From contig NZ_CP030032.1 of assembly GCF_003258315.1 (NCBI RefSeq), forward strand, positions 4,757,501-4,821,500: a stretch of DNA of 64,000 nucleotides, in the 5' to 3' direction. Made by a program: the position numbers and the translations under genes. This DNA is from Bradymonas sediminis. GTDB lineage: Bacteria > Myxococcota_A > Bradymonadia > Bradymonadales > Bradymonadaceae. The notes beneath the pieces were generated by a model, which saw nothing but the letters and a program-made list of their open reading frames with translations, ran no database searches and was not told the origin of the DNA. Positions 1,329 through 47,595 of this stretch are shown one piece after another (the first letter of the stretch is position 1; each line of letters starts with the position of its first letter).

Positions 1329-2351
1329 ATGTATAACACTGGATTCAGAATGGCGTTTTTGCAGCGAAAAATACGAACGCAAGGCGCGGCGCGCGCGGGG
1401 TTGATCTTGCTGGCGGCGACATGGCTGGCGGCCTGCTCGACCGAGGAACCGTTGCCGCAGGTGGAGGTCGACAATCCTCCGGTCGCCGAAGAAACCCGCG
1501 CGGGCACCTTGCTCGCCGAGTACGCCTCGCCGCGCGCGGCGGGCGTGAGCGGTGTGCGGGTTCACGCGCAATTTTTGGACGTTTATGGGATCCATTACGC
1601 CCGCGCGCTCGAAGCACTCGAGGTGTGGAGCCCCGACTATGAGCTCGACCTGGATGCCTGCAGCATGCACTCCGCACGGGCGGTGGAGTCGGGGCGAAAT
1701 GGCCAGATTCGATTGGAATTGCTGGACGTCGGCCCGATCACGGTGCACGGGCCTGATGCGTCGATTCGCCTCGAAGCCCGGCGCCTGCCGGATCTTCTGA
1801 GCGCCTTCTCCGGTGTTATCTATGGCACCGAGCAGGGGCTCGGCACCGAGCCGCTTCGCGTGGGCTATCACTCCGGCGCGCGCTATGATTTCAGCGCCCC
1901 GGGTCAGACGGAGAGCGCCGGATTCTCGGTGGCGATGCGCGCCCCCGAGCCGATTCACATCACACGCGTTGGCGCGTACGACGCGGCCAATGGCCCGCGG
2001 GTTGGCGTGAGCTTCGGCGAAGATCTCAATATCCAGTGGCGCTCCTCTATGGAGTCAACTGGCGCGCAGCTCGACGAGGCGCAAGCCCTGGCGTCTTCGG
2101 GCGAAGACGTATTTTTGCGCATCTCGGCAGGGTTCGGCCCCGATCGCCCACGCCTGAGCTGTCGCGTTGAGGATGACGGGACGTTCACGCTGCCGGCCGC
2201 GCTGATCGAGCAGCTCGTCGATGATTCAAACGAATTGCAATTGTCGCTGCGCCGCGTCAACGCCAAGAATATCGAGATCGACGGCCTCGACTCCGCCGAG
2301 TTCGTCTTCTCGGCGGTCGATGAGCTCACCCTCGTCGACACCCAGCCTTAA
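1329..2351 (+). CDS. Hypothetical lipoprotein
   Basis: About 340 residues. The N-terminus has a basic region (RKIRTQGAAR), a hydrophobic stretch and a lipobox LAAC with Cys36 if the ATG at 1329 is used, so it should be a lipid-anchored envelope protein. The rest is soluble, rich in beta-prone segments, with no motif I recognise. The ATG at 1329 is chosen because TAAGTGGGG lies six bases upstream; GTG 1317 and ATG 1350 are alternatives and all keep the signal peptide. It stands alone, with proS 138 bp downstream behind its own promoter-like palindrome. Confidence 0.7.
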   Translation: MYNTGFRMAFLQRKIRTQGAARAGLILLAATWLAACSTEEPLPQVEVDNPPVAEETRAGTLLAEYASPRAAGVSGVRVHAQFLDVYGIHYARALEALEVWSPDYELDLDACSMHSARAVESGRNGQIRLELLDVGPITVHGPDASIRLEARRLPDLLSAFSGVIYGTEQGLGTEPLRVGYHSGARYDFSAPGQTESAGFSVAMRAPEPIHITRVGAYDAANGPRVGVSFGEDLNIQWRSSMESTGAQLDEAQALASSGEDVFLRISAGFGPDRPRLSCRVEDDGTFTLPAALIEQLVDDSNELQLSLRRVNAKNIEIDGLDSAEFVFSAVDELTLVDTQP

Positions 2352-45572: not shown

Positions 45573-45869
45573 TCAGGCTTCAAGCCGATCTTTCCAATAT
45601 CCTGGCCGCTGACGCTGATGAGCCACCGCGATAATAATTAACATTTCGGGCTCAATCATATAGATCAGCGCAAAAGGAAATCGCTGCAGCAGAACTCGCC
45701 GCGTTCCGTGTGCAAATAAACTTCCGAGTTCAGGGTTTTCTGCCACTATTTTTACGGCGCTTTCAACATCGTCGATAAAGTCGTTTCCAAGTCCGCGGGC
45801 CCGAGCTTCATAAAAGTCGACCGACGCCAAAAACTCCTCGCGAGCTGGAGCGAGAAACTGAGTCTTCAT
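45573..45869 (-). CDS. RelE/ParE-family toxin
   Basis: A 98-residue protein of the RelE/ParE superfamily. FLAPAREEFLASVDFYEARA opens it, GNDFIDDVESAVKIVAENPE follows, and the C-terminal strands FPFALIYMIEPEMLIIIAVA and HQRQRPGYW are typical of the family. It would poison gyrase or cut mRNA unless bound by its antitoxin. Its ATG overlaps the stop of the antitoxin gene by 4 bp. Confidence 0.9.
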   Translation of the reverse strand: MKTQFLAPAREEFLASVDFYEARARGLGNDFIDDVESAVKIVAENPELGSLFAHGTRRVLLQRFPFALIYMIEPEMLIIIAVAHQRQRPGYWKDRLEA

Positions 45870-46093
45870 GATGACGCGCGTTCCCGCGCCTCATGCATCA
45901 CATCTTCTGCCGAAACGGACTCAACGCTCCCGTCCCGGTAGCCCTCGACGCGTTGCCGCGCCTCGTCTTTCCACGCGGCGGTAATTAAATCCTCGTCATC
46001 AAGGCTTGCGATCAACCGACGCGCGAGCTCCGCACGTTTGGTCCGCGACAACGCGAGTGCTGCCGCTTCAACGTCTTGGGGTGCTAATGACAT
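45866..46093 (-). CDS. Antitoxin of the addiction-module CHP02574 type
   Basis: A 75-residue acidic helical protein preceding the ParE-like toxin gene. The central LSRTKRAELARRLIASLDD and AWKDEARQRVEGYRDGSVES blocks match the short addiction-module antitoxin component. ATG 46093 has GGAG six bases upstream; the longer frame to 46144 has no ribosome-binding site. It should neutralise the toxin and perhaps repress the operon. Confidence 0.88.
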   Translation of the reverse strand: MSLAPQDVEAAALALSRTKRAELARRLIASLDDEDLITAAWKDEARQRVEGYRDGSVESVSAEDVMHEARERASS

Positions 46094-46249: not shown

Positions 46250-46634
46250 TTACGCGAACCGACCACCTTGCAGACGCGCAATTGCGCGAGGCGACCACTT
46301 TGCCGATCCGCAACGGGCCCCCGGCCGCTGGACGCGGCCAGCCCCCAGGCTTCGCCCAGGGGCTTATTTCACTGCCGATGCAACCACCTTGCAGACGCGC
46401 AATTGCGCGAACCGACCACTTCGCAGACGCGCAATTGCGCGAACCGACCACTTTGCCGATCCGCAACCTCGAAAACCGACCACCCCTAATAACTCGACCA
46501 TTTTCGCCCCCCAGGCGCAGCCTGGGGGGCAGGCGCACATGCGCCGGGGGGCCGCGCCGCGAACCGACCACTTCGCAGACGCGCAATTGCGCGAACCGAC
46601 CACTTCGCAAACGCGCAATTGCGCGAACCGGCCA
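46250..46634 (+). repeat. Array of 32-bp-period palindromic repeats
   Basis: The palindrome GCGCAATTGCGC occurs five times, at 46276, 46397, 46429, 46581 and 46613. Each copy sits in a unit of about 32 bp with GAACCGACCACTT and GCAGAC; the pairs 46397/46429 and 46581/46613 are exactly 32 bp apart. Shorter relatives (CCACTTTGCCGATCCGCAAC) stand at about 46300 and 46449. Hairpins such as GCCCCCCAGG/CCTGGGGGGC (46508-46532) lie between. The array fills the gap from the antitoxin promoter to the barrel gene stop, with no spacer pattern of CRISPR type. Confidence 0.85.
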
Positions 46635-46635
46635 C

Positions 46636-47535
46636 TCAGAAAAACAGCGAGACCGAGGCGTTGACGAAGAAATAGTCGGTGTCGCTGAGGTCCATGCGGA
46701 AGCCGGTGTCGATGCCGGCGGATTTCAGGCGCAGGCCCAGGCCGGCGGTGAGCATATTGCGCTCGTTGACCTGCAGGCGTTGGTAGCCCAGGCGCATGGG
46801 GACGACGCCACCGGCGAAATACTCGACGCCGCCCTGGAAGAAGGGGTGCACGGCGTTGGGGTCGGAGGTCAGGTCGGCGCCGCCGTCGATGGCGACGACG
46901 AAGGATTGCCCGTCGGCGATGCTCAGGCCGCCGGCGACGGTGGTCGGGGCGACGGTGGAGCAGAGGTTATCTTTTTGGCAGACGTCGAGCAGGTTGCGCC
47001 CGGCGACGCCGATCTGGATCATATCGCTGACCCGAAAGAGGGCGCCGGCGTCCAGGGTGAAGCCGTTGATGAGCTCGACGGTTTCGGCGTCGGGGACGTC
47101 TTGTTTGACGATCATATAGCGCCCGCCCACGCCGATCGAGATCTGCTCGGGGAGCGCCGGGATGGCGATGGCCAGGCGGATGTCGTGGCCGCTTAGCCCG
47201 CTGTGGTCGGCGTTGCCGAAGTGGTAGCTATAGGCGACGCCGGCGGCGACGTCGGGGTTGGTCTTGCTGTCGATGATCGAGGCGTTTAGCACCGAGCCGG
47301 TGGGGGTGTATTCGTAGACCCCTTCGGCCTGGTACATCATCCGGCTGGCGACGCCGCCGGGGTTGAAATACATCGCGGAGGTGCCCTCGGCCACGCCGGT
47401 ATACGCCTGTCCCATGCCCGAGGGGCGCACGCCGCGGCTGAATTCCTGGGCGAATGCGGTTTGAGCCACGAGCAGCCCCGCGATGAGCACGCTGAGCGAG
47501 GAGATCGATTTTAGATACTTCTGAAAATCACGCAT
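46636..47535 (-). CDS. PorV/FadL-like outer-membrane protein
   Basis: A 299-residue barrel with signal peptide (SISSLSVLIAGLLVAQTAFA, cleaved before QEFSRG). RGVRPSGMGQAYTGVAEGTS and AMYFNPGGVA are the N-terminal marks of the PorV/UPF0164/FadL-like group of long barrels, and the protein ends in a Phe (SLFF). Such proteins move hydrophobic compounds or serve type IX-like secretion; here only the barrel nature is certain. ATG 47535 gives a normal signal peptide and the longer frame does not. Its 3' end touches the repeat array. Confidence 0.82.
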   Translation of the reverse strand: MRDFQKYLKSISSLSVLIAGLLVAQTAFAQEFSRGVRPSGMGQAYTGVAEGTSAMYFNPGGVASRMMYQAEGVYEYTPTGSVLNASIIDSKTNPDVAAGVAYSYHFGNADHSGLSGHDIRLAIAIPALPEQISIGVGGRYMIVKQDVPDAETVELINGFTLDAGALFRVSDMIQIGVAGRNLLDVCQKDNLCSTVAPTTVAGGLSIADGQSFVVAIDGGADLTSDPNAVHPFFQGGVEYFAGGVVPMRLGYQRLQVNERNMLTAGLGLRLKSAGIDTGFRMDLSDTDYFFVNASVSLFF

Positions 47536-47595
47536 TCTTATTCCACTTATAAAAGACAGAGACGCCCGGCGGTTGGCCCGAGGACGGCGCAAACT

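Follow-up and report, generated by a model that had tools for sequence, protein, structure and literature searches.

Organization of the array

We analysed a 64,000-nt stretch of the Bradymonas sediminis genome (hereafter the window), in which a mosaic repeat lies between a toxin-antitoxin pair and a minus-strand gene without a Pfam match (Table 1). The repeat consists of two inward-facing, homologous double-hairpin modules of ~80 nt set within tandem 32-bp units of the form GCGAACCGACCACTTTGCCGATCCGCAAC(ctc). Its left end lies ~160 bp before the ATG of the antitoxin gene, and on the right the repeat runs directly up to the TGA stop codon (46636–46638) of the minus-strand gene. Elsewhere in the window, the segment 45428–45498, just past an aminotransferase gene, matches a module weakly (16.4 bits, E 0.13), with a head and two hairpins.

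Table 1. Coordinates of the array, its parts and the adjoining genes, numbered from the first base of the window.
Feature	Position	Strand	Remarks
ParE-type toxin gene (PF05016)	45573–45869	-	outside the element
Antitoxin gene (PF09720, Unstab_antitox)	45866–46093	-	outside the element
Whole mosaic element	46254–46635	+	tandem 32-bp units and two inward-facing modules
Unit 1	46254–46285	+	32 bp, GCGAACCGACCACCTTGCAGACGCGCAATTGC
Palindrome GCGCAATTGCGC, copy 1	46276–46287	.	
Unit 2	46286–46314	+	GCGAGGCGACCACTTTGCCGATCCGCAAC, runs into module 1
Module 1 (HP1)	46297–46376	+	5' head GGGCCCCCGG, hairpins hpA and hpB; covariance model 74.6 bits
Unit 3	46375–46406	+	degenerate start, palindrome at end
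Palindrome, copy 2	46397–46408	.	
Unit 4	46407–46438	+	32 bp, palindrome present
Palindrome, copy 3	46429–46440	.	
Unit 5	46439–46470	+	exactly the family consensus, no palindrome
Partial unit or linker	46471–46492	+	AAAACCGACCACCCCTAATAACTCGACC type, ahead of module 2
Module 2 (HP2)	46493–46571	-	homologous and inverted to module 1; covariance model 72.5 bits
Unit 6	46559–46590	+	32 bp, palindrome present
Palindrome, copy 4	46581–46592	.	
Unit 7	46591–46622	+	32 bp, palindrome present
Palindrome, copy 5	46613–46624	.	
Last unit, truncated	46623–46635	+	GCGAACCGGCCAC
Gene without Pfam match	46636–47592	-	stop codon touches the array

A preliminary description of this DNA had reported five perfect palindromes, paired at exactly 32 bp, each with the same flank and with large GC hairpins in between. 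All five exact copies of GCGCAATTGCGC are indeed present, against 0.035 expected per 64 kb under a first-order base model, and no shuffle gave five, even with one mismatch tolerated; two large GC hairpins were likewise found between the units. The pairing is exact for two pairs, but the first copy stands alone, and the spacings outside the pairs are 121 and 152 bp. Only three palindromes are followed by the exact flank GAACCGACCACTT; after palindrome 1 the sequence is GAGGCGACCACTT, and after palindrome 5 it is GAACCGGCCACTC. The palindrome forms where a linker half ending in ..CGCAA directly meets the TTGCG of the next, inverted counterpart, the unit variant of the window carrying GACGCGCAATTGCGCG in place of GATCCGCAACCTCG. 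Across the whole B. sediminis genome (one contig, 5,045,683 bases) GCGCAATTGCGC occurs 11 times, the six copies outside the array being scattered, with neither the flank nor an array around them. The 13-mer GAACCGACCACTT itself was counted six times in this genome, eight times in genome G008, twice in G010 and once in G052, and is absent from the other 53 genomes.

A dispersed family of paired hairpin modules

When the array was used as a query against the genome, six other loci were recovered, at 228, 270, 1614, 3340, 4241 and 5000 kb, with E values down to 1.7e-71. All six have GC-rich hairpin modules and the 32-bp unit, made up of GCGAACCGACCACTTTGCCGATCCGCAAC and some three further bases; linker tandems with a period of 32–33 bp also occur at 228, 270, 1614 and 3340 kb, never with the palindrome. 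Since the unit and the hairpins recur without it, GCGCAATTGCGC is a local variant and not the shared unit of the family, and the earlier view of the palindrome as the basis of the repeat does not hold. A genome-wide count, which the same description had recommended, yields no second palindrome array but does yield six further loci with the unit and modules. That the array is merely a locus-specific tandem duplication of no wider meaning is, for these reasons, scarcely credible: the palindrome is restricted to the window locus and its copies there are near identical, as such a duplication would have it, but the six other loci and the matches in other genomes contradict this reading for the array as a whole, and it holds only for the palindrome variant.

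As judged from open reading frames and third-position GC, all seven loci are intergenic. The flanking genes are convergent, co-directional or, once, divergent, and at six of the seven loci at least one of them ends toward the element. Names read by eye from the sequence, rather than by family search, place the six other loci beside genes for a metal ATPase and a lipoprotein diacylglyceryl transferase, a tRNA-dihydrouridine synthase, a TamB-like protein, a pseudouridine synthase, a topoisomerase or gyrase subunit, and others. A toxin-antitoxin neighbour exists only at the window locus.

These surroundings bear on the proposal that the array is a set of binding sites for a dimeric protein, be it an antitoxin operator or a nucleoid or partition site. 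Perfect palindromes 32 bp apart, about three helical turns, and the conservation of GAACCGACCACTT in three genera would suit such a role. Helical phasing does hold within the two pairs (32 bp being 3.05 turns), but the 121- and 152-bp gaps correspond to ~11.5 and ~14.5 turns and leave the pairs roughly half a turn out of helical register; moreover, the palindrome array exists at the window locus only, the six sister loci have unrelated genes for neighbours, and the array starts at some distance from the antitoxin start codon. The combination that marks a type II toxin-antitoxin operator, overlap with the antitoxin promoter and restriction to such loci, was not found. Because the six other loci lack toxin-antitoxin genes and the longer gaps are half a turn off, neither an operator nor cooperative binding is supported; the array is probably not a toxin-antitoxin control site, and we regard binding by a dimeric protein in general as very improbable.

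Within the window, HP1 is homologous to the reverse complement of HP2, and the two share one order: an outer end TTGCmGrTnCGC, the C-rich head GGGCCCCCGG, hpA, hpB and an ATGGTyG tail. In an alignment of 24 modules from three genera, 13 rows of which come from one genome, 82% of cells pair and 44 double-sided changes were counted, compared with 16.8 in column shuffles, none of 500 shuffles reaching 44; versions of the structure slid along the alignment gave at most 20. When the class (57 genomes) was searched with a covariance model built from this alignment, modules were detected in four genomes, with B. sediminis contributing 13, G010 (8,047,206 bases) 60, G019 six and G008 two; the remaining 53 gave none, and no module scored above chance in twenty 20-kb control stretches of G010. 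In B. sediminis the modules form inward-facing pairs at four loci, the window included, and are arranged otherwise at the rest; G010 holds 21 inward-facing pairs vs one other close pair. Solitary modules were also found.

The search for similar arrays in relatives, another suggestion of the preliminary description, returned related modules in three other genomes, but the 33-bp linker tandem found in G008 is devoid of the palindrome. At three G008 loci (L121, L122 and L133) 33-bp tandems of AACCGACCACTTTCCAGTACGCCAAC surround a different hairpin core, CACAAATGTGTAAAT...ATTTACACATTTGTG, and at L122 the tandem is inverted on the right side of the core. A wider scan of a genome collection for one hairpin pattern gave no match, and for tandem AACCGACCACTT it returned only the G008 record, one Halorubrum and one Myxococcaceae MAG, the last two in surroundings that differ from those of the family. 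The MAG also contains a ~50-bp unit with CAACCGACCACTTCCGC in it, repeated in large inverted arrays (L145, 5430–5880). Spread by viruses was considered and rejected, the viral contigs being free of the tandem unit.

The copies in G010 have a sharp outer boundary. Across 49 aligned ends, the bases G, G/T, A/T and G precede GC[C/A]TTGC, the first G being present in 90% and the last in 84%, and exact GTAG, GGAG and GGTG are common; no such tag can be recognised in the B. sediminis copies. In ends of the GCATTGC subtype the tag is followed by a hairpin whose stem is 10 bp long (-10.9 kcal/mol, z -4.75); the hairpins of the three further end variants that were tested did not clearly outdo those of shuffles. 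At the centres of the G010 elements lie inverted boxes, TCGACCACTT and AAGTGGT, which match the AACCGACCAC linker of B. sediminis.

With strong GC hairpins supported by covariation, an array that touches a stop codon and six of seven loci with a gene ending toward the element, the family could be taken for functional RNA, that is, bidirectional terminators or mRNA 3'-end stabilisers under selection. We consider this improbable. No T-run follows the hairpins of the window, no Rfam family matched above its threshold, one locus lies between divergent genes, and the distribution is patchy, with 53 of the 57 genomes lacking the elements; a mobile element read as single-stranded DNA would be expected to show covariation just as much. 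Any role in ending or stabilising transcripts may be a side effect.

Candidate mobilising enzymes

With PF01797 (Y1 transposase) as the query, B. sediminis gave nine copies and G010 gave 26. The covariance model found no module near the 34 of these IS200/RAYT-type loci whose flanks were scanned, the scan giving one chance-level match (15.4 bits, E 0.36). Three RAYTs, at 1.51 and 2.52 Mb in B. sediminis and at 5.45 Mb in G010, have inverted repeats of their own that differ from the modules. As these three carry other repeats, both genomes do contain REP-RAYT partners, but the module family is not among them. The RAYT-type gene at 1.51 Mb (L265, C1:1510000–1514000, ORF 1353–2057, plus strand) has tandem inverted repeats on both sides (AGGAGCGCGGGCCTCCCGGCCCGC / GCGGGCGGGGACGCCCGCGCTCCT), and this locus looks like a standard REPtron of B. 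sediminis. The one at 2.52 Mb (L266, C1:2523000–2527000, ORF 1654–2319, minus strand) sits between tandem arrays of 44 bp and ~108 bp made of GGAGCCAGACC..GGTCTGGC hairpins. Fourteen RAYT-like elements of ~1.25 kb were observed in G010 (L094–L107), ~78–96% identical and with CACGGTGTCAGACACCGTG at one end, which is unusually many for a RAYT; this high-copy element was rejected as a partner of the modules, since it has its own ends.

Two further candidates were dismissed. IS21 elements came into question through the likeness of their ends to a GTGGTC-type box, and the istB copies examined in G010, G016, G003 and G005 lack such repeated units at their ends. An autonomous transposon in the 1.5–2 kb gaps between G010 modules was also considered, and the open reading frames there look like ordinary genes. 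No autonomous partner with the same ends was found near the module copies examined.

A DDE transposon could in principle have given rise to the modules as MITEs, inverted-terminal-repeat derivatives moved by cut-and-paste. The element as a whole is nearly symmetric, with matching outer ends, and one G010 element harbours a gene for an IS1380-like transposase (L140 6474–9059, G010:C1:12473–15058); a rearranged second copy of this gene nearby (L140 1499–2619) also touches module sequence. The first gene is located, however, within the hpB loop of a module pair and is bounded by inverted ends of its own that include the hairpin arms, an arrangement more like that of an insertion in the repeat than of its parent. 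It resembles in this respect the insertion of ISPpu9 copies into REPs reported for Pseudomonas putida (PMC8450116). Furthermore, modules also occur singly, and among 18 pairs no target-site duplication of 3–9 nt was detected beyond the level of shuffled flanks. The absence of such duplications disfavours the MITE reading, which we hold to be unlikely.

Genes for DUF559-type endonucleases adjoin elements at two G010 loci (L233 2623–3135 and L114 1840–2418) and one B. sediminis locus (L111 2458–2751), having been identified by eye and their relatives through sequence comparison. Both G010 loci are flanked by modules on both sides, the B. sediminis gene looks truncated, and no DUF559-type gene was seen in 400 kb of G010 control sequence. 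With three loci, too few to call, the association is a lead. It suggests a rather speculative variant in which an orphan REPIN-like family would move without a RAYT, with a different enzyme recognising the hairpins and the conserved AACCGACCACTT box, the DUF559 (Vsr-like) endonuclease being a candidate.

Relation to BIME and REPIN elements

Taken together, these data lead us to interpret the array, with a probability of roughly three in four, as one member of a dispersed, non-coding, BIME/REPIN-like repeat family of old non-autonomous elements, the linker of which was multiplied at the window locus. At its core the element is a pair of homologous ~80-nt modules inverted relative to each other, and each module has a C-rich head and two stem-loops. 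Linker blocks with AACCGACCAC(TT) lie between the modules and on either side of them, and at several loci the linker stands in tandem at a 32–33 bp period. As in BIMEs and REPINs, which are paired inverted REPs (PMC2817692, PMC3116915), the elements are extragenic, dispersed and sometimes clustered in tandem, with a linker between two inverted hairpin modules that belong to two subtypes, no detected target-site duplication and, in G010, a GTAG-like outer tag; multiple extragenic copies, stem-loops with compensatory change and close inverted module pairs are all found here. Unlike in those families, the module measures ~80–90 nt and bears two or three hairpins, compared with a REP unit of 20–40 bp, none of the RAYT-type loci scanned stands beside a module copy, the B. 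sediminis copies are few and lack a recognisable tag, occupying fewer loci (seven) than most REP families, and the linker block itself amplifies in 32–33 bp tandems. The missing transposase linkage, the larger modules and the small number of loci count against the BIME/REPIN-like reading, and because neither a cognate RAYT flanked by the same repeats nor a 20–40 bp unit was found, we describe the family as a REP variant and do not file it as a member. The statement that the array resembles neither CRISPR nor classic REP is thus right in detail, but the paired inverted hairpins and the GTAG-like end tag of G010 are REP/BIME-like.

Other known repeats offer partial parallels. CGTC-tagged REPs are paired palindromic repeats reported without a dedicated transposase (PMC3733652); they share with our family the pairing and the missing transposase, whereas the tag here is G[TG][AT]G-like and the modules are much longer. 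The TIR repeats of TIRYT elements, which flank a Y1 transposase gene (PMC3733652), are likewise long, self-complementary and found as dimers and clusters, but the modules flank none of the 34 Y1 loci scanned. MITEs are similarly short and non-coding with inverted symmetric ends; they differ in the target-site duplication, missing here, and no DDE transposase with matching ends was found near the module copies examined.

We infer that the family works like a REPIN-type non-autonomous element and that its members are probably remnants of tiny non-coding mobile elements. Copies would have spread non-autonomously, a trans-acting enzyme recognising the hairpins and the end tag as proposed for REPINs, so that B. 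sediminis would now hold old, degenerate copies only. At the window locus the short linker may then have expanded through slippage or unequal recombination. The array's effect today, if any, is probably incidental; for the gene at 46636–47592, whose stop codon the stem-loops immediately follow, they could protect or end the transcript. The suggestion of a family of mobile palindromes, also made in the preliminary description, survives in the form of a dispersed, putatively mobile inverted-module family in four genomes.

We conclude that the array belongs to a BIME/REPIN-like repeat family, new, composite and of low copy number, whose linker is expanded at the window locus; no earlier report of such repeats in Bradymonadales was found in the literature searched. 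For annotation, this removes the false lead of a regulatory palindrome array beside a toxin-antitoxin pair. For the predatory Bradymonadales it adds a composite, RAYT-less BIME-like family, and the ~60 tagged modules of G010 vs the seven degenerate loci of Bradymonas offer a genome pair in which to ask how repeats spread without a cognate tyrosine transposase, a question also left open for the CGTC REPs.
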